From Myxococcales bacterium (GTDB taxonomy: Bacteria; Myxococcota_A; Polyangia; Polyangiales; Polyangiaceae): a stretch of 64,000 bases of DNA. A program made the position numbers and the translations under genes. The notes beneath the pieces are model-generated. The model worked only from the letters and a program-made list of their open reading frames with translations, searched no databases and was not told where the DNA came from. The stretch spans positions 1 through 64,000 of the forward strand of contig JAAFHV010000010.1 in NCBI GenBank assembly GCA_013297655.1, written 5' to 3'. Below are positions 50,013 through 62,243 of the stretch, piece after piece. Every line of letters begins with the position of its first letter. The stretch's first letter is position 1.

Positions 50013-50876
50013 TTACTGCGAGCGAGCCAAGCACTCCCCTTCGCCGCGGAAGTGCCCCACCGTGCGGCTGAGCGCCGTGGTGTACGCCTTCATGTCGAGG
50101 ATCTCGGACGCGGTCCCGGTGCCGTAAGGCCCGTTCGCCTTCGGGAGCCGCGCGAGCTTCGAGGCCTCGAGCTCCGCGAGGGTGACCTCCCCGTTCTTGT
50201 CGGCGTCGGCGTCCGCGATGTTCTGGAAGCGGAGCTTCGCGTCGGGCGACTGGAGGTCGTCGTAGAGAAAGTGATCGCCGTGGATGGTGAGCTCGACCGC
50301 GTCGACGCCACCGTTGGTGACCACCACGCCGTCGACCTCTTTGCCGGCGACCTCGCCCTTGCACTTGTCGAGCTGCGTCTTGGTGGAAAATCCCCACTTG
50401 AACGACTTCGTGTCGGTGCCCTTCGTAGCTTTGCCCTCGACGTAAACGGAGTAATTCCCGGTCACCATGAGCGCCTTCTCGGCCTCGGTCGCGCCTTCAC
50501 CGAGCTCGCTCGCCGAGGTCGCGGGGGCGATCTCGTAGCTCACCTCGGTCCACGCCTTCGCCTCGAGATCCTTGAGCTCGACGACCGGCTTTGGCTTCGG
50601 AACGACGAGGTTGAACACCTTCGCCGTCTTCATCTCGGCGCCCACAGCCGTGCCGTCGCCGACCTTCACGTTGCCGATGACGACGAGGAACTTTTCGTAC
50701 TTCACCGCCCAGCCGTCCTCGAGCTCGGTCGCGGGGATGCCCTCCTCGATGTACTCCTCACCCCACGTCGTGAAGCTCGCGGAGCCCTTGCCCCCCGAGC
50801 TCGCGGCGTCGGTGGTGCAGGCCCCGAGAACGAGCGACAGAGCGAGAACGGAACCGGCGATCGCTGAAGTACGCAT
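50013..50876 (-). CDS. Metal-associated lipoprotein with EF-hand-like segment
   Basis: 287 aa, lipobox LGAC (Cys20). A central beta-rich domain contains IHGDHFLYDDLQSP, a His/Asp-rich segment suited to metal binding. Near residue 235 lies DADADKNGEVTLAELE, an EF-hand-like calcium loop. Two more Cys (LDKCKG, GECLARS) are present. Strong GGAGG ribosome site. A Zur-like palindrome sits at 50899-50913, 23-37 bases before the start. It follows another lipoprotein gene and a TonB receptor gene on the same strand, so a role in handling or delivering a metal complex is inferred. Confidence 0.75.
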   Translation of the reverse strand: MRTSAIAGSVLALSLVLGACTTDAASSGGKGSASFTTWGEEYIEEGIPATELEDGWAVKYEKFLVVIGNVKVGDGTAVGAEMKTAKVFNLVVPKPKPVVELKDLEAKAWTEVSYEIAPATSASELGEGATEAEKALMVTGNYSVYVEGKATKGTDTKSFKWGFSTKTQLDKCKGEVAGKEVDGVVVTNGGVDAVELTIHGDHFLYDDLQSPDAKLRFQNIADADADKNGEVTLAELEASKLARLPKANGPYGTGTASEILDMKAYTTALSRTVGHFRGEGECLARSQ

Positions 50877-50887
50877 GAGCCTCCAAA

Positions 50888-50913
50888 TAACACGATTATG
50901 TTAGTACGTAACA
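50888..50913 (-). promoter_or_regulatory. Zur/Fur-like palindromic operator
   Basis: TGTTAGTACGTAACA (50899-50913) is TGTTA-N5-TAACA, matching the core arms and spacing of the gamma-proteobacterial Zur box. A third half-site, TAACA at 50888-50892, forms a second inverted pair with TGTTA (six-base spacer). A CATAAT -10-like hexamer on the minus strand (50895-50900) overlaps it, so a bound repressor would block the lipoprotein promoter. Zur binding in this phylum is not shown; another Fur-family or TetR-type repressor is possible. Confidence 0.5.
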
Positions 50914-50962
50914 CTTTCGTGCCACGGACACACATACGCGTGTCAAGCTCCCGCGGATCGCC

Positions 50963-51757
50963 TCATTTTGGAGTGAACGCGAAGCGGTAACGATCGCCCC
51001 CGCGGATGCTGCGCGTGAGCTGGGACTGGGTCACGTCGACGAGCTTGGCGGGGGTCGCGTCCTTCGGGAGGAGCTCGAACTCGACTTGGTCGAGCCACGC
51101 GTCGGCGTCGATCGTGACGACCACGTTTCCCTCGCTCTGCACGTCGGACTCCGTGAAGGGGCAGCCCTCGATCGCAGGCCTGCCTTTCGCGTCCACCACT
51201 TCGTCCGCCTTCACCTCGGCGCGGAACGTGCGGGCCTCCGCGCCCTTCTTCGCGGTGCCCTCGAGCACGATCACGTTGCCAGCGAGCTCGCCCGCGAGCG
51301 GCCCGGCGGCCGGCGATCCGAACGTGAACGTCGCGCTTCGGAAAGGCCCGGAGACTCCTTGCCCATCTCCGAGGCGCCCGTCGGCAGCGAGCAAGTCGAC
51401 GCTCGTGGCGGTGAGCATCTCCCCCTTCGCGTTGCCCGGAACATAGTGACCGGGGTGCGCGTGCGCGGTCTCGACGCGCCACAAGAGCTGGAGCGGAGAG
51501 AGCACCGGCCGCCACGGCGCGCTCGCGAAGAGCGTGTCGCCGTCGAAGAAGTAAAACGCCCCCGTCGCGACCATCGCCTTCGTGAGCGTCACGTCCCACC
51601 CGACCTTGGTCGTGAAGGTCTTCTTGACCGGCGCGACCGTCATCGTGAACGTGACCCGCTTTCCGGTCGTCGCGTCCGGGGTGCTCGCGTCGCCGCAGCC
51701 GAGGAGCGACACGAAGAGCGACGAGACGAGCGCGAGAGCGGTGCGACGGGTGAGCAT
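50963..51757 (-). CDS. Lipoprotein of the TonB-receptor locus, 264 aa
   Basis: Lipobox SLLGC (Cys21). The domain is beta-rich with a His cluster (ETAHAHPGHYVPG), a Cys (IEGCPF), and acidic surface patches (DADAWLDQVEFELLP). It starts seven bases after the TonB receptor stop with a GAGG ribosome site, so the two are cotranscribed. The family is not named with confidence. By context it is probably a periplasmic-facing metal- or metallophore-handling partner of the receptor. Confidence 0.72.
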   Translation of the reverse strand: MLTRRTALALVSSLFVSLLGCGDASTPDATTGKRVTFTMTVAPVKKTFTTKVGWDVTLTKAMVATGAFYFFDGDTLFASAPWRPVLSPLQLLWRVETAHAHPGHYVPGNAKGEMLTATSVDLLAADGRLGDGQGVSGPFRSATFTFGSPAAGPLAGELAGNVIVLEGTAKKGAEARTFRAEVKADEVVDAKGRPAIEGCPFTESDVQSEGNVVVTIDADAWLDQVEFELLPKDATPAKLVDVTQSQLTRSIRGGDRYRFAFTPK

Positions 51758-51764
51758 GAAAGCC

Positions 51765-54215
51765 TCAGAGGTGAAGGGTCAAGCTCGCGTAAAACGCGCG
51801 AGGAGGGCCGGCGGTGACGTGGCGAACGGGGATGCGGGAAGGGCTCGCGCTACGAGAGAAGTTCGACGCGAAGACGAACTGGCCGTCGTAATACGGTTGG
51901 TCGAGCAGATTGGTCGCATCGAGGGAGATCTCGACCTCCTTGAGGCGGATGCCCATCGTCGCGTCCGTCAGGACCACGTTCTGGCCCAGCTCGCCGTAGG
52001 GCAGCGGGCGGCGAATCACGCCGTCGAGGCCGACGCCGACGCGACCGACGAGATCACGCGAGAACAGACGCGCGAGCTTGTGCTCGATCTTCGCGTCGCT
52101 CCGCACGATGAGCTGCGGCACATAAGGAAGGAGATCGCCCTCCGCGTAGTCGGCGTTCGACCCCGTGAACGCGGCGCGGGTGTAGGTGACGCTGCTCGAG
52201 AGGATCAAGAGCTCCCCTGCCCGCGCGGTCATCTCGAGCGTGCCTCCCACGCGCCTCGTCCCCGGTACGGCCTCGTTCCGCGCGGTGACCGGATCGAACA
52301 CGAGATCGTCGGAGAGGCTCGTCGTGTAGACCGCGGCCGAGCCCGCGAGCGCGCGCCCGAACGTGAACCGCGAGCCGAGCTCGAAGCTCTGAACCTTCGT
52401 AAAGGGCGAGATTTGCCCGTTCGCGAGGCTGCGCGCCTGCGGCGAGCGGAAGCCATCGCCGTAGCTCGCGAGCACGTGGAGCCCGCGCATGATCGTCGCG
52501 TCGGCGGTGATCTTCTTGCCGATGTTGGCGGACTGCGACGATCGCGAGGGCCCCGGGTTCGTGGCGCGATCGTTCACCGCGTAGGCGAGCGTGTCGACAC
52601 GCACCCCGCCACGAAGCACGAGACGCGGGTGGAGGTGGAGCTCGTCGTCGATGTACGCCGCCACGTCGGTCGCGTGCACGTCGGCGTCGACCAGTGTCTC
52701 GCTGATCCGATCGTCCACGCTGCGGAGCCGCACCTGCGATTGTTCGATGCGATCGTGACGCGCATAAACGCCGACCTCGATCGTGTCGCGATCGGAGGCT
52801 ATTTTTAGCGGCCTTTTGTAAGAAGCGGTTCCGCCGAACATGAGCGAGCTCTGCTGCTGCTCGGTGTTGTCGGAGTCGAGCGTGTCCTTCCCGCCGCGGA
52901 GGGAATCGCCGAGGAAGCCGGTGAAGTTCTGGCGGAGCGAGAAGCCACGAACGACGACGAACGGCGCGACGTGGAAGCTGCCTTCCGTGGTGTCGCGGTG
53001 GAGCTCGAGGAGGAGCTGCGTCCGCGACGACCGACCTCCCTGCTTCGGATCGAGGGTCGCGTAACGATCGAGCCTCCCCGCCTCTACGTCGCGCTGGGGC
53101 ACGACCCCGGCGGTGTCGAAGCGGCCCGAGTAGGTCGAAAAAAGAAGCCTCGCAGAGAGCCCGTTGTCAAAATCGTGGGTCGCCTGCGCCATGAGCGAGC
53201 CGCGGCGCGCGCTGCGGTTCGGCCCGAAGCCGTCGGTGGTGTACTCCTCGAACGAGGCGAAAGTCTCGTCGGAGACGTCTTTCGGGCGGTACGCGAGGAA
53301 GAGCCTCCGCGTGCCGAAGGAGCCGATCGTGCCCTTCGTATGGATGCCTGGCTCGGCGTACCCGAGCTTCATGCGAATCGTGCCGGCGACGCCAAAATCG
53401 CCCTGCCTCGGATCGTAGGTGCCGCCCTGCGCGACCACCTCTTTTACCACCTCGGGGGGCGCAAAATGCAGGTCCGCATAACCCTGACCGTGCACGTTCG
53501 AGACCTCGTTTACCGGGATCCCGCCGACCCAGAGCTCCACGTCTTGACCGTGCACAGCGTCGAAGCCGCGCATGAAGATCTGGTGCGCCTTGCCCTCTCC
53601 GCTGTGCTGCGTGACGAACACGCCCGGCACCACGTTGAGCAGATCGCTCGCGGTGCGATGGGGCGCAGCGCCGAGCACGTCGCGCCCGCGCACGATCTCG
53701 GAAGCTGAGCGCGCCCCGGCGCGGCCCTCGACGCGCACCGCCTCGACCTTGGGAGGCTCGGGCGGCGCGTGCGTGTGCGGCGGCGCGCTCACGTCGTGAA
53801 CGTGCGGCGCGACCTCCGGTGTCGCCGGCACCGCGGCAGGGCCCGCCGCGACCGCGACCCCTCGGAAACGAACCACCTCGCGTACCTTCGCGGAGACCGG
53901 CTTTCCGTCCCGCGTCGCCGGCGTGTAACGAAACGACGAGGCCGCGTCGACCGCCGCGTGATCGAGGTCGTGCGAGACCGAAGCCTCGACCTCCACTTGC
54001 GCGACCGCGCCGTCCTCGCCGACGACGATCACGACCGGAACGACGACGTCGTGGGTATCGGCCGCGCCGGGCCAAACCGCGTCGGGGTGGTGCACCGCCA
54101 CCGGCACCGTCACGTCGTGCGCGAACGCGGGCGACTCGGCTCCGAGCCACGCCACGAGCACCCACGACGCCACGGCACCCAACTTCACGAAGGGGTGAGT
54201 AGCACGATTGGTCAT
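51765..54215 (-). CDS. TonB-dependent receptor with fused TonB-C-like N-terminal domain
   Basis: Outer-membrane importer, 816 aa. A signal peptide (about 1-32) ends ESPAFA. The mature start is His-rich (HDVTVPVAVHHPDAVWPGAADTH by segments). Residues about 52-122 resemble the C-terminal domain of TonB (VVGEDGAVAQVEVEASVSHDLDHAAVDAA, FRYTPATRDGKPV), then a second His patch (HVHD, PPHTHAPPEP). A plug domain (about 165-290, ASDLLNVVPGVFVTQHSGEGKAHQIFMRG) and a 22-strand-type barrel ending in LTLHL follow. His clusters favour zinc or copper, free or chelated. It lies directly downstream of the MNIO/DUF2063 genes. Confidence 0.88.
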   Translation of the reverse strand: MTNRATHPFVKLGAVASWVLVAWLGAESPAFAHDVTVPVAVHHPDAVWPGAADTHDVVVPVVIVVGEDGAVAQVEVEASVSHDLDHAAVDAASSFRYTPATRDGKPVSAKVREVVRFRGVAVAAGPAAVPATPEVAPHVHDVSAPPHTHAPPEPPKVEAVRVEGRAGARSASEIVRGRDVLGAAPHRTASDLLNVVPGVFVTQHSGEGKAHQIFMRGFDAVHGQDVELWVGGIPVNEVSNVHGQGYADLHFAPPEVVKEVVAQGGTYDPRQGDFGVAGTIRMKLGYAEPGIHTKGTIGSFGTRRLFLAYRPKDVSDETFASFEEYTTDGFGPNRSARRGSLMAQATHDFDNGLSARLLFSTYSGRFDTAGVVPQRDVEAGRLDRYATLDPKQGGRSSRTQLLLELHRDTTEGSFHVAPFVVVRGFSLRQNFTGFLGDSLRGGKDTLDSDNTEQQQSSLMFGGTASYKRPLKIASDRDTIEVGVYARHDRIEQSQVRLRSVDDRISETLVDADVHATDVAAYIDDELHLHPRLVLRGGVRVDTLAYAVNDRATNPGPSRSSQSANIGKKITADATIMRGLHVLASYGDGFRSPQARSLANGQISPFTKVQSFELGSRFTFGRALAGSAAVYTTSLSDDLVFDPVTARNEAVPGTRRVGGTLEMTARAGELLILSSSVTYTRAAFTGSNADYAEGDLLPYVPQLIVRSDAKIEHKLARLFSRDLVGRVGVGLDGVIRRPLPYGELGQNVVLTDATMGIRLKEVEISLDATNLLDQPYYDGQFVFASNFSRSASPSRIPVRHVTAGPPRAFYASLTLHL

Positions 54216-54233
54216 TTTCTTGCTATCGACCTG

Positions 54234-55040
54234 CTATCGAGGAGCGCCCAGCAAAATCCCGCGTTCGCCGAAGTCCGCGAGCCATTTCGCGACCTCCGTG
54301 AGGAGGGCCTCGGACACGGCTGCACCGCACGCCCCCGCCGCTTCGCCTATCGAATGACCGAGCGGGAGGCCGCGAAGCAAGCGCGCGAGGAGCTCGTCCG
54401 CGAAGGGAGTCTGCACGACCACGCGCACCTCGTGCTCCGCGTCGCGGTAGACGAAGAGCCGTGTCTCGGCCGCCGCCGCGGGTGGGGTCGGCGCGACACC
54501 GAGCGTGTGGACAGGGTGCGCGAACATGAGGCGCTCGCTCGGTCCGCGAAGCACGACGGGGCGCTCGGCGGCGATGTCGTCGAACGACGCGGGCAGCACC
54601 TCGTTTACCGCCGCGCCGACGCGAAACTCGGTGAGCTCGAGGCGAAAGAGCTCCGCCACGTACGACGGGACACGTGCATCTTGCATGAGTCGCGGGACGA
54701 GCACGGCGACGAGCTCCGACGGTACGTCGCGAAGGTGAGGAGTGCGCGGACCACCGGCGTCGAGATAGGCGTCGACCGCGTCGCTCCATGCGCCCTTCGC
54801 GCTCGCCTCGAGGTGCGCGTGGCCGCGTTCGAGAATGGCCTCGCACACCCCGAGCACGTTCCCGCGCACGAGCTTGCGGTAAAGCGAGAGGCGAGGCTTC
54901 GCGCCGAGCAGCGCGCGGCGGTCGGGAGGGGCGACGCCGTGGCGATCGAGCAGGGCGCCGAGGTCTCGTTTTGCCTCGTCTTTCGGCGAAAAACAGGCCT
55001 CTCGCACCGCGGCGTGAAGCGCCTCGACCCGAGCGCTCAC
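54234..55040 (-). CDS. DUF2063 (HvfC/BufC-type) partner of MNIO maturase
   Basis: 268 aa. The N-terminal half is the DUF2063 domain (SLYRKLVRGNVLGVCEAILERGHAHLE, and LPRLMQDARVPSYVAELFRLELTE region), originally named a DNA-binding domain but in MNIO clusters the recognition partner (as HvfC, BufC, and functionally like MbnC/TglI). The C-terminal half is an alpha/beta region with HPVHTLGVAP. The GTG start overlaps the MNIO stop by four bases (GTGA), so the two proteins are made in step. It should present the Cys-rich peptide to the maturase. Confidence 0.85.
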   Translation of the reverse strand: MSARVEALHAAVREACFSPKDEAKRDLGALLDRHGVAPPDRRALLGAKPRLSLYRKLVRGNVLGVCEAILERGHAHLEASAKGAWSDAVDAYLDAGGPRTPHLRDVPSELVAVLVPRLMQDARVPSYVAELFRLELTEFRVGAAVNEVLPASFDDIAAERPVVLRGPSERLMFAHPVHTLGVAPTPPAAAAETRLFVYRDAEHEVRVVVQTPFADELLARLLRGLPLGHSIGEAAGACGAAVSEALLTEVAKWLADFGERGILLGAPR

Positions 55041-55948
55041 GGGCGCACCTCGGCGACCGCGCGCGTCGCCGCGACGTGCTTCGCGAGACCGCGATCGTAC
55101 GCCGCGCCGAGGGTACGAACCTCCGCGAGCAGCTCCGAGAGCTCCCCTATCGCTTGGTCACGCTCGAGCACGACCGGCACCGGCCCCGTCTTCGCGATCA
55201 TTTCTTCGAGGAGCGTGACGACCGGCGGGCACACGTCCGAGCCATGGGTGTCGACGATGAGGCGGCCCTTGCCTGCTCGCTGCGTCGCGGAAAGCTCGTA
55301 GGTGCCTTCGTCGAAGTAGTCGTGGCCGGCGACGTGCATTTGGATCACGCGATCGAGCGGTACTTTCGAGAGCCACGCGCGCACGTCGTGGCCGAAGTTC
55401 GAGGCGTTCACGTAGGCGTTGTTGACGTCGAGCATGAGCTTGCAATCTGCCGCTTCGCACACCTCGGCGATGAACTCGGCTTCGCCCATCTCGGCCTCGC
55501 CGGGGTGGAGGTAATAACTGACGTTTTCGATCGCCATCGGTCGTCCGATCGTGTCCTCGACGTGCTTGATGCGATCCGCGATCCGCGCGACCTCGCTCGT
55601 GAGGAACGGGATCGGCAAAAGATCGTGGAGCACGCTGCCGCCCGCCGACGAAAAGCAGAGATGGTCCGAGTGATGCTCGGCGCCGACCTCGTCGAGGAAC
55701 GAGCGCAGTTGCCTCAAGAACGCGCGATCGAGCGGATCGGATCCACCGAGCGACAGCGACAGCCCGTGGCTCAAGAGCGGATAGGTCTCGCCCAGCCGAG
55801 CGAGCAGCGCGGGAAAGCGCCCACCGCGCCCGACGTAGTTCTCGGGCGAGATCTCGAGGAAAGGCAACGCGGGCAAGCCCTCGCACAACGCGTCGATGAT
55901 CTCCCAGCGGAGGCCGAGCCCCACGCCCGTCGGACGCGGCTTCTTCAT
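55037..55948 (-). CDS. DUF692 / MNIO peptide-maturase
   Basis: A multinuclear non-heme iron oxidative enzyme of 303 aa, the family of MbnB, TglH, HvfB and BufB that oxidatively rearrange Cys in peptide natural products. Expected metal-ligand segments are all present: EISPENY (Glu36), LSHGLSLSLGG (His61), EHHSDHLCF (His93, His96), IENVSYY (Glu141), LDVNNAYVNASN (Asp174 region), FGHD (His187), MHVAGHD (His205), VDTHGSDV (Asp233, His235) and LERD (Glu262). AAAGGAG ribosome site seven bases before the ATG at 55948 decides the start. The DUF2063 partner is coupled downstream and the Cys-repeat peptide gene lies 440 bases upstream on the same strand. Confidence 0.93.
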   Translation of the reverse strand: MKKPRPTGVGLGLRWEIIDALCEGLPALPFLEISPENYVGRGGRFPALLARLGETYPLLSHGLSLSLGGSDPLDRAFLRQLRSFLDEVGAEHHSDHLCFSSAGGSVLHDLLPIPFLTSEVARIADRIKHVEDTIGRPMAIENVSYYLHPGEAEMGEAEFIAEVCEAADCKLMLDVNNAYVNASNFGHDVRAWLSKVPLDRVIQMHVAGHDYFDEGTYELSATQRAGKGRLIVDTHGSDVCPPVVTLLEEMIAKTGPVPVVLERDQAIGELSELLAEVRTLGAAYDRGLAKHVAATRAVAEVRP

Positions 55949-56050
55949 GCGTCGCTCCTTTCGGTCGACACGCACGCGTCGCCCGTTCTCATCGTGGGGG
56001 TCGCGCGCCGTTCGCTGACGCTCGGTTGCATCGTCATGGCTCCAAAACCT

Positions 56051-56240
56051 AGAGCACCGAACCGCTTAGTGACCGAGGATTTTCGCCGAGTTGCGAGCCG
56101 TGCGAGGCGCGACGACGAGTCCTACTGCTGCTAGCCGAGGAGGAGCAACGAAGCACGACGCTACAGGGCAGCAAGTCCCTGACGAGGGACGGCGACGCAA
56201 ATCGTCGAAAAGCCGACCGAACTAAGCGGTTCGGTGCTCT
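56051..56240. repeat. 190-bp element with perfect 20-bp inverted ends
   Basis: AGAGCACCGAACCGCTTAGT at 56051-56070 is repeated exactly in reverse complement at 56221-56240. The arms extend inward imperfectly (a shared GGxTTTTCG). The interior contains a 6-bp hairpin (GTCCCT / AGGGAC near 56175-56190) and no gene. No target-site duplication is obvious. It could be a MITE-like element or a large RNA fold in the leader of the MNIO gene. Confidence 0.85.
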
Positions 56241-56310
56241 GGCAGCAGGGGGATCGCGGACCGAAACGGGTCGTTGCGAACGAGACCGATCGAGACCGCA
56301 TTCTACGAAT

Positions 56311-56345
56311 GAAAACGCCGCGCCTCGCGCAGGGCGAGACACGGC
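56311..56345 (-). terminator. Terminator or attenuator after the Cys-repeat peptide gene
   Basis: On the minus strand GCCGTGTCTCGC pairs with GCGAGGCGCGGC (12 bp, two wobble pairs, five-base loop) and is followed by GTTTTC. It lies 45 bases after the peptide stop. Partial read-through would give more peptide than maturase, a common arrangement in RiPP operons. Confidence 0.7.
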
Positions 56346-56389
56346 ATTCTCGGGGTCCGTGCGCGCCGTTCAGCGCGACGAACGGGCGA

Positions 56390-56833
56390 TCACTTCTTCT
56401 TCGCGGAGCAGGTGCCGGCGCCGCAGGAGCCCGAGCCCGCCTTCTTGACGTCGGGCTTCTTGGCAGCAGCCTTCGGATCGGCGACGGGCGCCGAAGCGGC
56501 CGCGGCCTTGGTGTCCGGAGTCGCGGCCGGGGTGGTCGCCGCGGTGGTCTCCGGGGCCTTCACTTCGTCCTTCTTGGCGCTGCACGAGGCCGCGCCGCCC
56601 TTGTTCGCGCTGCACGAGGCCGCGCCGCCCTTGTTCGCGCTGCACGAGGCCGCGCCGCCCTTGTTCGCGCCGCAGGAGCCGCCGTCCGCCGCGGCCGCTG
56701 CGCCGGGGACCGCGTCGGTCGCGTTCACCGCGGGAACCTCCGGCGGCTTGACGTCGCCGCACGCGGCGATGACGACGGTGGTGCCGATGACAGCGAGCGC
56801 GCCCGCGATTTTCTCGAACGAAAGATTGGCCAT
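56390..56833 (-). CDS. Secreted Cys-repeat peptide, candidate MNIO RiPP precursor
   Basis: 147 aa. N-terminal export signal (hydrophobic 9-24) ends in IAAC (Cys25), a possible lipobox. After a Pro/Ala-rich spacer come four Cys ten residues apart (Cys54, 64, 74, 84) in repeats SCGANKGGAA and SCSANKGGAA, then a 50-residue Ala/Lys/Pro linker, and finally GSGSCGAGTCSAKKK (Cys137, Cys142). Such exported, low-complexity peptides with SCGANK/KCG-type motifs are the usual substrates in HvfA/BufA-like MNIO clusters. GGAG ribosome site eight bases before the ATG. Terminator and inverted-repeat element separate it from the maturase gene. Modification and metal are not demonstrable from sequence. Confidence 0.8.
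   Translation of the reverse strand: MANLSFEKIAGALAVIGTTVVIAACGDVKPPEVPAVNATDAVPGAAAAADGGSCGANKGGAASCSANKGGAASCSANKGGAASCSAKKDEVKAPETTAATTPAATPDTKAAAASAPVADPKAAAKKPDVKKAGSGSCGAGTCSAKKK
56581..56670. repeat. Three identical 30-bp repeats in the precursor gene
   Basis: The 30-base unit starting TGCACGAGGCCGCGCCGCCC is present three times without a single mismatch. Each encodes the ten residues around one Cys (GGAASCSANK). Perfect identity at synonymous positions points to recent expansion. Confidence 0.93.
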
Positions 56834-56910
56834 CACGATTCTCCCTTTTTCGACCCGCACAGCGGGCCTTCCGTTTCCGTTGAGGAGCGCTTGGCTCCTC
56901 GCCTTCACGA

Positions 56911-56944
56911 GCGGCGGGACCGAGGTCCGCCGCGAACTTTTTTT
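56911..56944 (+). terminator. Plus-facing terminator between two minus-strand genes
   Basis: GCGGCGGGACC and GGTCCGCCGC form a 10-bp stem with a one-base bulge, followed on the plus strand by GAAC and seven T. No plus-strand gene precedes it. In minus-strand RNA it would be an A-run then a hairpin, in the leader of the precursor gene. It may block antisense transcription or shape the leader. Confidence 0.6.
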
Positions 56945-56986
56945 CTTCCGCGTCTCCGCTCGTGGCGGCGGCGCGATCGCCCGCAT

Positions 56987-57841
56987 CTAGGGCGCGATCG
57001 TAGCGGTGAAGTCTACCGAAATCGACGCCGTTTCCGCCACCTTGGTGCCAATGAGCGAGAAGGCGGCCTTCGCGATCTTGCCCACGTCGTCGCGCGGGCG
57101 CACCTCGTGCTCGGCGAGCGTCACCTTCCAAGGATCGCGCGACGTGATCACGATCGACTTCGGACGATCGGTCGGCTTTGCGCCCGCGGCGTAGACCAGC
57201 TTCGCCGTGAGCGGCACGTCTTTGTTCACCTTGTGACCGTGAACGAGGAGCTCGCCGTGGGCGACGAGATCGGTCTTGCGCACGTCGTTGCCGCCCTCGG
57301 AGACGGAAGCGATCTTGCTCGCGTTCTTCTCTGCGACGCCGTCGATGCTACGGATCGCGAACACCGCGAACTTGTTCTGCGCCTTCACGTCGTCGGCGAT
57401 TTTACCCTTCTCCGGATCGCCTGCCTCGAGCCACGCGAGCGCGTGAAGGGTCTGCGTGCCGTCCTTCGTGGCGTCGCCGAACGTGGTCGTCTTGAGGGAC
57501 GTAACGTCCACCTTCACCTCCCCGCGCGTCTGCGTGAGGTCCATGAGGTCGACGTCGAGGTGGCCGTCGGCGGCGCTGGTCTGCGCTTTGATCTTCTCGC
57601 TCGGGGCCGGCATGTCGATCTTGGTGGTGCCCTTCGGATCGATCTTGGCCTTCACGACCATGCTCGAGGGCGGCGCTTCCGACGGAGCCAAGCTCGACGC
57701 GGCAGGAGCCACTGGCTTCGTCTCTTCTTTCTTGTCGCACCCCGTGCCCAAAGCCATGCCCGCCGCCACTGCCATCACGACCGCTGCACCGTTCAGCGAC
57801 GAAATACAGCTCGTTTTCAGCATTCCGTAAGGTCCTACCAT
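56987..57841 (-). CDS. YceI-like exported protein
   Basis: 284 aa. A hydrophobic N-terminus ends LGTGC, giving a probable lipoprotein. After a Pro/Ser/Glu linker (about 35-80) the C-terminal 180 residues match the YceI lipocalin-like beta barrel (KAQTSAADGHLDVDLMDLTQTRGEVKVDVTSLKT, VAHGELLVHGHKVNKDVPLTAKL, FSLIGTKVAETASISVDF). YceI proteins bind isoprenoid-type lipids in the periplasm. The ATG at 57841 has a GGAGGAGG ribosome site. It precedes the Cys-repeat peptide gene by 153 bases on the same strand, so it may belong to the same locus. Confidence 0.8.
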   Translation of the reverse strand: MVGPYGMLKTSCISSLNGAAVVMAVAAGMALGTGCDKKEETKPVAPAASSLAPSEAPPSSMVVKAKIDPKGTTKIDMPAPSEKIKAQTSAADGHLDVDLMDLTQTRGEVKVDVTSLKTTTFGDATKDGTQTLHALAWLEAGDPEKGKIADDVKAQNKFAVFAIRSIDGVAEKNASKIASVSEGGNDVRKTDLVAHGELLVHGHKVNKDVPLTAKLVYAAGAKPTDRPKSIVITSRDPWKVTLAEHEVRPRDDVGKIAKAAFSLIGTKVAETASISVDFTATIAP

Positions 57842-57946
57842 CCGCGCCTCCTCCGGCCGCCACACTCTACGCGCCAGGTCGGGTGCGGTTTCGAACATAC
57901 CCGAGGGTTTTCGTGAGGACCGAAATAACCGTACCCTTTCGAGACG

Positions 57947-60322: not shown

Positions 60323-61324
60323 TTACTTCTTCTTCGGCGGCTTCCAGCCGGGGACCCTCACGTCGTGGCGCGGAGGGGGCGTGGGGTGGGCCTCGCCGCG
60401 CACGCAACGGAAGCCGACCCCGGGGACCTGATACGTGAACTGCGCCGCCGCCCGGTACGTGATGACCATCCCGCCGAACGAGCGGTTCCAGGCCCCGCCG
60501 CGGAGGGGATGCATCGGCGTCTCGTTGCGGACGAGCGGGTCTTCCGCGCCGCCCTTCTTGAACGGCGCGTACGAGTCCTCCACCCACTCCCACACGTTGC
60601 CGGCGAGATCATGGATGTGGCCGGACGGCCAGACGCGATCGCCTTGCGGGTGCGAGCCCACCTTCGACGGCCCGCCGCCGTGACAGCCCACGTCGCCCCC
60701 TGCCCTCGTCTTCGGCGCGCCGTACTTCGTGAAGTCGACTTGATCACACGACGGCTCGGGAGCGTTGCCCCAGGGGTACTTGTAGTGCTCCGGCCCCGTC
60801 GCCGCCCACTCCCACTCCGCCTCGGTCGGGAGCCGCTTGCCGACCCACGCGCAGTACTCACGCGACTTTTGCCAGTCGACCGAGTTCACCGGATGATCGG
60901 GGAAATTCGGGTACATCGAGAACGGATCGGTCTTCCACGGCTCGCGGCACGCGCCCTTCGCCACACATGCAGCGAACGCCTTCACCGTCACCTCGCTCGC
61001 GTCCATGCAGAATGCACGCGTGATGACCACGTTGTGCGCTTCCTCACGCCCCTTCATCATCGTGAAGCCCGTCGCTCCGGTCGGCGGGATCTCCACCTCT
61101 CCGTCCGCGCATGCGCTCGTTCGTGGCGGGGGCGCGCCATCGCCCGCGTCGTCGGCGCTCGCGACGTGCACGTCTGCCCCGGCGTCCACGACCGGCTCGG
61201 GAGCGGCGATCGAAGCGTCGGGAAAAGCCGACGGCGCGGCGGCCACCGGCGCGGGAGCAGGCGTCACGTTGCCTCCGCACGACGCGAGCAAGGCGAGGGC
61301 CAGCGAGACCATCCGGGGGCGCAT
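60323..61324 (-). CDS. FGE/SUMF1-type lipoprotein
   Basis: 333 aa. Lipobox LLASC (Cys16), then a Pro/Ala/Asp-rich linker to about residue 70. The formylglycine-generating-enzyme-like (sulfatase-modifying factor) domain follows: MDASEVTVKAFAAC, FPDHPVNSVDW, RLPTEAEWEWAATG, DLAGNVWEWVEDSY, LRGGAWNRSF, GFRCVRG. Most bacterial members are ligand-binding or regulatory rather than sulfatase activators, and no sulfatase gene is near. Several Cys beyond the fold could form disulfides in the periplasm. Confidence 0.88.
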   Translation of the reverse strand: MRPRMVSLALALLASCGGNVTPAPAPVAAAPSAFPDASIAAPEPVVDAGADVHVASADDAGDGAPPPRTSACADGEVEIPPTGATGFTMMKGREEAHNVVITRAFCMDASEVTVKAFAACVAKGACREPWKTDPFSMYPNFPDHPVNSVDWQKSREYCAWVGKRLPTEAEWEWAATGPEHYKYPWGNAPEPSCDQVDFTKYGAPKTRAGGDVGCHGGGPSKVGSHPQGDRVWPSGHIHDLAGNVWEWVEDSYAPFKKGGAEDPLVRNETPMHPLRGGAWNRSFGGMVITYRAAAQFTYQVPGVGFRCVRGEAHPTPPPRHDVRVPGWKPPKKK

Positions 61325-61484
61325 CCGGCGTTCGTACTCGAGGAACGCGCGATGGGAAAAATTCGCGGAGATCGCAGGTTCGTGGCGTCGCTCGGTCTTC
61401 GGACCTCCCTCCCCACGGTCCATCGTGCTCCGGTTGGCACGAAGGGTTCCCGGATGACCTGTCGCTGTCGTAAGGTGGGCTGTC

Positions 61485-62243
61485 ATGCATCCGAGGCGAG
61501 GGAGAGAGCGAAGCGCCACCATCCGTCGCGGGACGCGCTCCCACGTGCGGCGTCTCGTCGCGCTGGCGCAGGTCCTCGTGCCCGTCCTGCTCGTGCTCCT
61601 CTCGTCGTCCACCGCGCGGGCGCAAGCGCGAGAGACCCAACTGTGGACCGGCGTGTTCTTGAACGCGAAAGATCCGCGGACCGCGAACAAAGAGCAGGGC
61701 CTCTCGCTCTGGGTCGACCTGCAGACCCGCCGCGGCGAGGAGGGCACCACCTGGCTCGCTCGGCCCGCGCTCGGATACAGGCTCTCTCCGCGGTGGAGCG
61801 TGTGGGCGGGCTACGCGTGGGTCGGCACGTTCGTCGACGCCGAGGATCGCCCCGACGTCATCGAGCAGCGCGCGTGGCAGCAGGGCCTCTACACCGACAA
61901 AATCGGGCAGCTCACGTACCAGCTTCGCCCGCGCCTCGAGGAGCGCTTTCGTCACGGGGAGGACGCCGCCCTCCGCGCGCGCATGCTCGCCCGCGCGAAC
62001 GTCGCGTTCTGGCCGGACGGCCCCCTCGCGCTCGCCGCGTGGGACGAGGTCTTCGTCGCGTTCGCGAAGACCTCGTGGGGCGCGCCGGGCGGCTTCGATC
62101 AGAACCGGCTCTTCCTCGGCCTCGGCTACACCCAAGGCATCATGCGCATCGAGATCGGATACATCGGCACCACGGTTCGGCGTGCGGACGACTCGCTCCT
62201 CCACCAGCACAACCCGTCGCTCTTCGGGTTCTTCACGTTCTGA
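61485..62243 (+). CDS. DUF2490 outer-membrane barrel
   Basis: 252 aa. An Arg-rich N-region and hydrophobic core give a signal peptide ending in ARAQA. The mature protein matches DUF2490: RETQLWTGVFLN, short paired strands such as WVDLQTRRG and RLSPRWSVWAGYAWVGTF, and a C-terminal FGFFTF. Predicted small outer-membrane barrel of unknown function. Divergent from the FGE-like lipoprotein gene. Confidence 0.82.
   Translation: MHPRRGRERSATIRRGTRSHVRRLVALAQVLVPVLLVLLSSSTARAQARETQLWTGVFLNAKDPRTANKEQGLSLWVDLQTRRGEEGTTWLARPALGYRLSPRWSVWAGYAWVGTFVDAEDRPDVIEQRAWQQGLYTDKIGQLTYQLRPRLEERFRHGEDAALRARMLARANVAFWPDGPLALAAWDEVFVAFAKTSWGAPGGFDQNRLFLGLGYTQGIMRIEIGYIGTTVRRADDSLLHQHNPSLFGFFTF

Follow-up and report, generated by a model that had tools for sequence, protein, structure and literature searches.

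Do a peptide maturase and a TonB-dependent receptor encoded side by side in a bacterial genome belong to one metal-handling system or to two? The question is raised by seven genes in a 64,000-nucleotide stretch of DNA (hereafter the window) from a Myxococcales bacterium (GenBank assembly GCA_013297655.1, contig JAAFHV010000010.1, positions 1 to 64,000). An earlier note on this DNA had proposed that a maturase of the MNIO family makes a ribosomally synthesized and post-translationally modified peptide (RiPP), which is exported as a metal chelator and then taken up again or sensed through a TonB importer of its own. All seven open reading frames were present on the minus strand, in the positions and order described there. 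The best explanation that we found is that they form two adjoining but separate units in this Polyangiales soil bacterium. Unit A (57892-54234) comprises a YceI-fold lipoprotein, a lipoprotein RiPP precursor, the MNIO and an HvfC-type partner, and unit B (54226-50013) comprises the TonB receptor, an MbnP-fold lipoprotein and a second lipoprotein. We regard it as probable overall that unit A provides a lipid-anchored thiooxazole metal buffer and unit B a NikR-controlled nickel importer.

The enzymes of unit A place it among peptide-modifying clusters. We sampled 145 relatives, many of them draft genomes and metagenome-assembled genomes (MAGs), and inspected gene neighbourhoods as large as 20 kb at 40 of the MNIO-bearing ones, together with named Myxococcota loci; genes at neighbouring loci were called by a simple codon-position score, and the association counts given below take no account of relatedness. 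The MNIO (55037-55948) matched PF05114 with 302 bits in Pfam, and 117 of the 145 relatives had an MNIO at E <= 1e-20. A His/Asp/Glu set was invariant over 42 homologues, and the structural relatives in the PDB were 3bww and 8hci. The nearest NCBIfam families were HvfB (282, cut-off 360) and BufB (267.6, cut-off 310), both of which were matched by all 42 homologues scanned. The enzyme was far from ChrH, ApyH and MbnB (47.4, cut-off 325), and a methanobactin-like reading was set aside on the MbnB score. The gene overlaps that of its partner (54234-55040) by GTGA at 55037-55040, as had been noted. The partner passed the NGO1945_C cut-off (35.3 bits, cut-off 27), fell marginally under that for DUF2063 (26.7 bits, cut-off 27.2) and scored 75 against curated HvfC, below the cut-off of 142. 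The locus thus has an MNIO gene and, adjacent to it, a DUF2063-plus-RRE-type partner, the pairing that marks captophorin or MNIO-PME1 clusters. Characterized pairs of this kind reportedly install 5-thiooxazole and yield products that bind copper (PMC13097082, PMC12452194).

Two further observations concern these enzymes. The same genome encodes a second, distant DUF692-type protein (L002, G000:C503:4587-5192; 79 bits), next to which we looked for a Cys-peptide gene and found none. In six relatives (L045, L047, L058, L060, L062 and L070) the HvfC-type gene is followed, on its own strand, by a gene for a Ser/Thr kinase; the L062 kinase is fused to an FGE-sulfatase domain by Pfam and that of L045 reads alike. 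An FGE-sulfatase lipoprotein is also encoded in the window at 60323-61750.

The substrate of the pair would be the precursor encoded at 56390-56833 (MANLSFEKIAGALAVIGTTVVIAAC...). The earlier description of a secreted Cys-repeat peptide stood in part: an export signal and Cys repeats are present, but the signal ends in a lipobox, so we predict a lipoprotein rather than a soluble, diffusible peptide. Lipobox calls here come from a script that scanned for a lipobox together with a hydrophobic segment and Cys residues downstream. By this script, 41 of 49 related loci had a precursor with a lipobox and a low-complexity tether, as in MNIO clusters that make DAG-RiPPs. In 40 of these 41 precursors the C-terminus carried a CxxxxC motif of the form CGxG[TS]C, typically CGAGTC, CGEGTC or CGQGTC; in the window this conserved head, CGAGTC, is encoded at 56408-56425. 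Signal peptide and conserved CxxxxC together are also the features of a published CxxxxC family (PMC12452194). Many precursors have a PVNATEV-like motif close behind the lipobox, and their signal peptides resemble one another (MRPNLSxExIAGALAVLGT). A low-complexity Ala/Pro/Lys stretch separates anchor and head, and the number of additional Cys motifs ranges from none to seven, the window precursor having four SCG/SCS motifs. The peptide therefore looks membrane-anchored, to judge from its sequence, rather than like a freely diffusing chelator. Betaproteobacterial loci found by MNIO similarity (among L178-L184) had ordinary KDGKCGEAKCGA-type oxazolin precursors, whose signals, in contrast to the lipobox precursors, look like those of signal peptidase I type.

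We read the head as a single, reduced oxazolin-type dyad, because CGEGTCG differs from the CGEGKCG dyad of EGKCG repeats at only one position. In assays, FonBC modified a substrate bearing two EGKCG repeats but left a single-repeat substrate unmodified (PMC13097082). One dyad is therefore a plausible minimal substrate, by analogy with those assays. As to the marks of a bufferin, the MNIO scored below the BufB cut-off, and the precursor matched no Pfam family, DUF2282 included.

The fourth component of unit A is the lipoprotein encoded at 56987-57841. Its assignment as YceI-like was borne out: on its own it scored below the Pfam cut-off (16.4 bits), PF04264 was matched by 25 of 29 aligned relatives, and the AlphaFold model (mean pLDDT 85) had only YceI-family proteins among its top 20 PDB matches, including E. 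coli YceI, BcnA and polyisoprenoid-binding proteins. The lipobox Cys35 is nearly invariant. A homologue lay within about 4 kb of an MNIO gene in 34 of the 58 relatives that have one (places compared by hand), as did 11 of the 12 best homologues; in the exception, a short contig ends at the MNIO gene. Across Polyangiales the genes are repeatedly found in the order YceI, precursor, MNIO, partner, with YceI sometimes trailing instead of leading. No paper joining YceI with MNIO clusters was found, and a YceI partner went unmentioned in the MNIO literature that we searched. Nine other loci share the SEC-C gene that lies upstream of unit A, so the locus is for the most part inherited as a block.

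Upstream of the YceI gene, GAAAC-N14/18-CGTA occurred in 17 of 32 loci, compared with a mean of 0.09 and a maximum of 2 over 300 shuffles; the window has GAAACC-N15-CGTAGAG at 57865-57892. Extracytoplasmic function (ECF) promoters commonly have AAC in their -35 element, in myxobacteria as in other bacteria (PMC3107203), and unit A appears to be read from an ECF-like promoter. When we looked for further genes behind this promoter, no clear regulon emerged; one such site was found 54 nt ahead of a gene for a Ser/Thr kinase (G072, L202). CorE was considered as a candidate sigma factor and dropped, as the main text of the paper gives no sequence for comparison.

Taken together, unit A very probably makes a membrane-tethered, modified Cys peptide of the captophorin or bufferin kind, with YceI as a new partner. 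This agrees with the earlier expectation of an exported, uncharacterized Cys peptide that is handled by an MNIO pair and likely binds metal. We propose that in the cytoplasm the MNIO and its HvfC/PME1 partner would act on the CG-type motifs of the precursor and oxidize their Cys, with 5-thiooxazole as the most likely product. Export would follow, then lipidation at the lipobox Cys, and a disordered Ala/Pro/Lys tether would keep the peptide at the membrane. There the CGxGTC head, here with four more Cys motifs, would bind and buffer an excess of a soft metal, Cu(I) being the most likely one. The YceI-fold lipoprotein may bind a membrane lipid, isoprenoid or quinone, and possibly limits lipid peroxidation provoked by copper; in Burkholderia, lipid peroxidation is limited by BcnA, which has the YceI fold (PMC9113575). 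The whole unit would be transcribed from the ECF-type promoter.

Copper is the most likely metal in this proposal. The same unit may instead serve zinc, nickel, cobalt, gold or another thiophilic metal, or act as a redox or envelope-stress device, a possibility that we take seriously but rate well below copper buffering. Unit A could not be tied to a metal-specific regulator, its promoter is of a general ECF type, and the YceI partner suggests lipids or quinones, all of which leave room for it, whereas the MNIO-PME1 products studied so far are copper-linked (PMC12452194, PMC13097082).

Unit B has a different signature. The receptor (51765-54188) matched plug, beta-barrel and N-terminal TonB_C domains in Pfam. 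It probably starts at GTG 54188, a start that we prefer because it gives a good signal peptide and because ATG 54215 lies inside an operator. That operator is an inverted repeat, ATAGCAAG-N12-CGTGCTAC, at 54199-54226; a second, GTGTTACG-N12-CGTGTTAT, lies at 50887-50914, upstream of the last lipoprotein gene. Repeats of the form GTRNCAC-N14-GTGCTAC were found before the receptor or elsewhere in unit B in 16 of 20 relatives, and also precede NicO-type nickel transporters. This repeat fits the NikR signal published for delta-proteobacteria, also in its reverse-oriented form (PMC545781). The site at 50887-50914 had been taken for a Zur-like palindrome; the palindrome is real, but it fits the NikR signal far better than a Zur-type operator (Zur itself was not searched for), and is most likely a NikR box. 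A nikR gene was present in 17 of 20 genomes searched and adjoins the unit-B operon in three (G058, G078 and G072).

The first lipoprotein of the unit (50963-51757) is predicted to have the MbnP fold (7l6g; Z 10.2, 181 aligned residues, root-mean-square deviation 4.0), the next entry having Z 5.8. It has an invariant HPGHY and matched no NCBIfam family at E 0.1. The second (50013-50876) has invariant His/Asp motifs, TIHGDH..YDDL among them, and an EF-hand-like loop. Like the RiPP precursor, neither lipoprotein had a family match in our Pfam and NCBIfam scans. Elsewhere in the same genome, paralogues of both stand together on another contig (L122, G000:C81), where neither a receptor nor a recognizable box was found nearby, and a second TonB receptor with an N-terminal TonB_C domain (L142, G000:C536) is divergent from a His-rich TonB gene, with a NikR-type box between them.

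From these sites and neighbours, unit B looks like a separately switched nickel-uptake operon under NikR, which would carry nickel over the outer membrane. NicO-type carriers can transport cobalt besides nickel, and the MbnP fold is known from copper-linked operons; both points would suit a unit that imports another metal, such as copper or cobalt, or its chelate. We consider this unlikely in view of the NikR-type box and the adjacency of nikR.

The distribution of the two units bears on whether they work together. In relatives, the two unit-B lipoproteins adjoin each other at separate loci, and the receptor stands beside them at 18 of the 20 unit-B loci read. Within the stretches read at those 20 loci we found no MNIO, partner, precursor or YceI gene, and in the eight genomes with both units on one contig the units lie 0.3 to 8.2 Mb apart. 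The gene-neighbourhood check that the earlier note had suggested was thus positive for one half of its model: YceI, precursor, MNIO and partner co-occur across Polyangiales, but the receptor does not join the MNIO genes, save in three Labilithrix-type loci. Because unit B is a separate operon with NikR-type boxes, sometimes with nikR beside it, and lies far from the MNIO unit, a peptide with its own dedicated importer is not supported.

The proposed cycle of export and re-uptake or sensing, by which a diffusible RiPP metallophore would come back by way of the neighbouring receptor and lipoproteins in the manner of methanobactin, fares no better. The receptor gene does follow close behind the partner gene, the three Labilithrix-type loci repeat the arrangement, and genes for MbnP and MbnT occur in methanobactin operons (PMC3621798), which gives the MbnP fold of the unit-B lipoprotein some weight. 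Against this, unit B is conserved without unit A and has NikR-type boxes and nikR of its own, no NikR-type box was found at unit A, the precursor carries a lipobox, and the MNIO is remote from MbnB. We consider a single system of this kind highly improbable.

The three loci just mentioned (L172, L173 and L182; two Labilithrix MAGs and one Myxococcales MAG) have unit B downstream of unit A, with nikR and a ChrR-like cupin gene between the units. The cupin gene, possibly of an anti-sigma factor type, is on the opposite strand between the partner gene and nikR. In a tree, the MNIOs of these loci form a clade that excludes the window MNIO, so the adjacency needs two changes. Given these two changes and the intervening nikR, we did not accept adjacency as evidence of joint function and read it as position. 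In the window lineage and in Labilithrix the units might nevertheless cooperate, the modified lipopeptide binding nickel, or sorting nickel from copper at the envelope, and passing it to the NikR-controlled receptor and MbnP-fold lipoproteins; we give such RiPP-assisted nickel uptake very little credence.

Several findings weigh against the two-unit explanation that we prefer. The curated cut-offs for HvfB, BufB and HvfC were all missed, and the partner gene lies on the opposite strand in several relatives. The window precursor has no EGKCG repeats, with SCGANK/SCSANK repeats and CGAGTC in their place. Four of the 20 unit-B relatives have no recognizable box, and the adjoining units at the Labilithrix-type loci make some link possible.

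The region between the precursor and MNIO genes holds one further element (56051-56240), which resembles a miniature inverted-repeat transposable element. Its inverted ends are 45 nt long, and this genome contains about 40 copies that are 73-99% identical; it is an insertion and no part of the system.

The wider interest is in what each unit offers. An apparently lipid-tethered MNIO peptide family is widespread in Polyangiales and in places is reduced to one CGxGTC head, and unit A could serve as a small test case for the substrate needs of MNIO-PME1 pairs and for whether buffering of metals is connected with damage to lipids at the envelope. Unit B may be a route for nickel across the outer membrane, and it may place the MbnP fold in a nickel context.

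Compared with known systems, the precursor is not categorically new; the YceI partner is the new element relative to the MNIO literature that we searched. Captophorins (oxazolin/HvfABC, fontiphorin, gonophorin and bufferins; PMC13097082, PMC12452194) likewise have an MNIO and a DUF2063/NGO1945-type partner beside an exported Cys peptide with CG motifs, and the CxxxxC spacing of the window family equals that of two EGKCG units. Unlike captophorins, the window family has a lipoprotein precursor with one C-terminal CGxGTC dyad, variable extra Cys and a low-complexity tether, together with a YceI partner, an ECF-like promoter and scores under the HvfB, BufB and HvfC cut-offs. A lipidated CxxxxC cluster, cluster X, is known but uncharacterized (PMC12636315), and a CxxxxC family is also named elsewhere (PMC12452194). 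Compared by description rather than by sequence, these share a signal peptide (a lipoprotein one in cluster X) and a conserved CxxxxC, whereas their clusters often carry Lactamase_B_2 and DoxX genes and YceI is not mentioned. Lipidated MNIO RiPPs have been demonstrated in DybA and NedA (PMC12636315), DAG-RiPPs that resemble the proposed unit-A product in that an MNIO modifies them and that the lipoprotein pathway is their predicted route; of the two, DybA falls in the ChrH branch and NedA carries EGKCG repeats, and, unlike unit A, neither is described with a YceI partner. The unit-A lipoprotein shares its fold with the YceI/BcnA bacterial lipocalins (PMC9113575), which are linked to a cytochrome b561 gene, whereas it has a lipobox and a link to MNIO. 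For unit B, MbnP of methanobactin operons (7l6g; PMC3621798) shares the fold of the first lipoprotein, with 14% identity over the aligned part, but no MbnH-type di-haem partner was seen at unit B and control is of NikR type. The NikR regulon of delta-proteobacteria (PMC545781) has similar half-sites, GTRNCAC and GTGYTAC, about 14 nt apart, with nikR nearby; its target is an ABC transporter, whereas the putative targets in unit B are a TonB receptor and an MbnP-fold lipoprotein.

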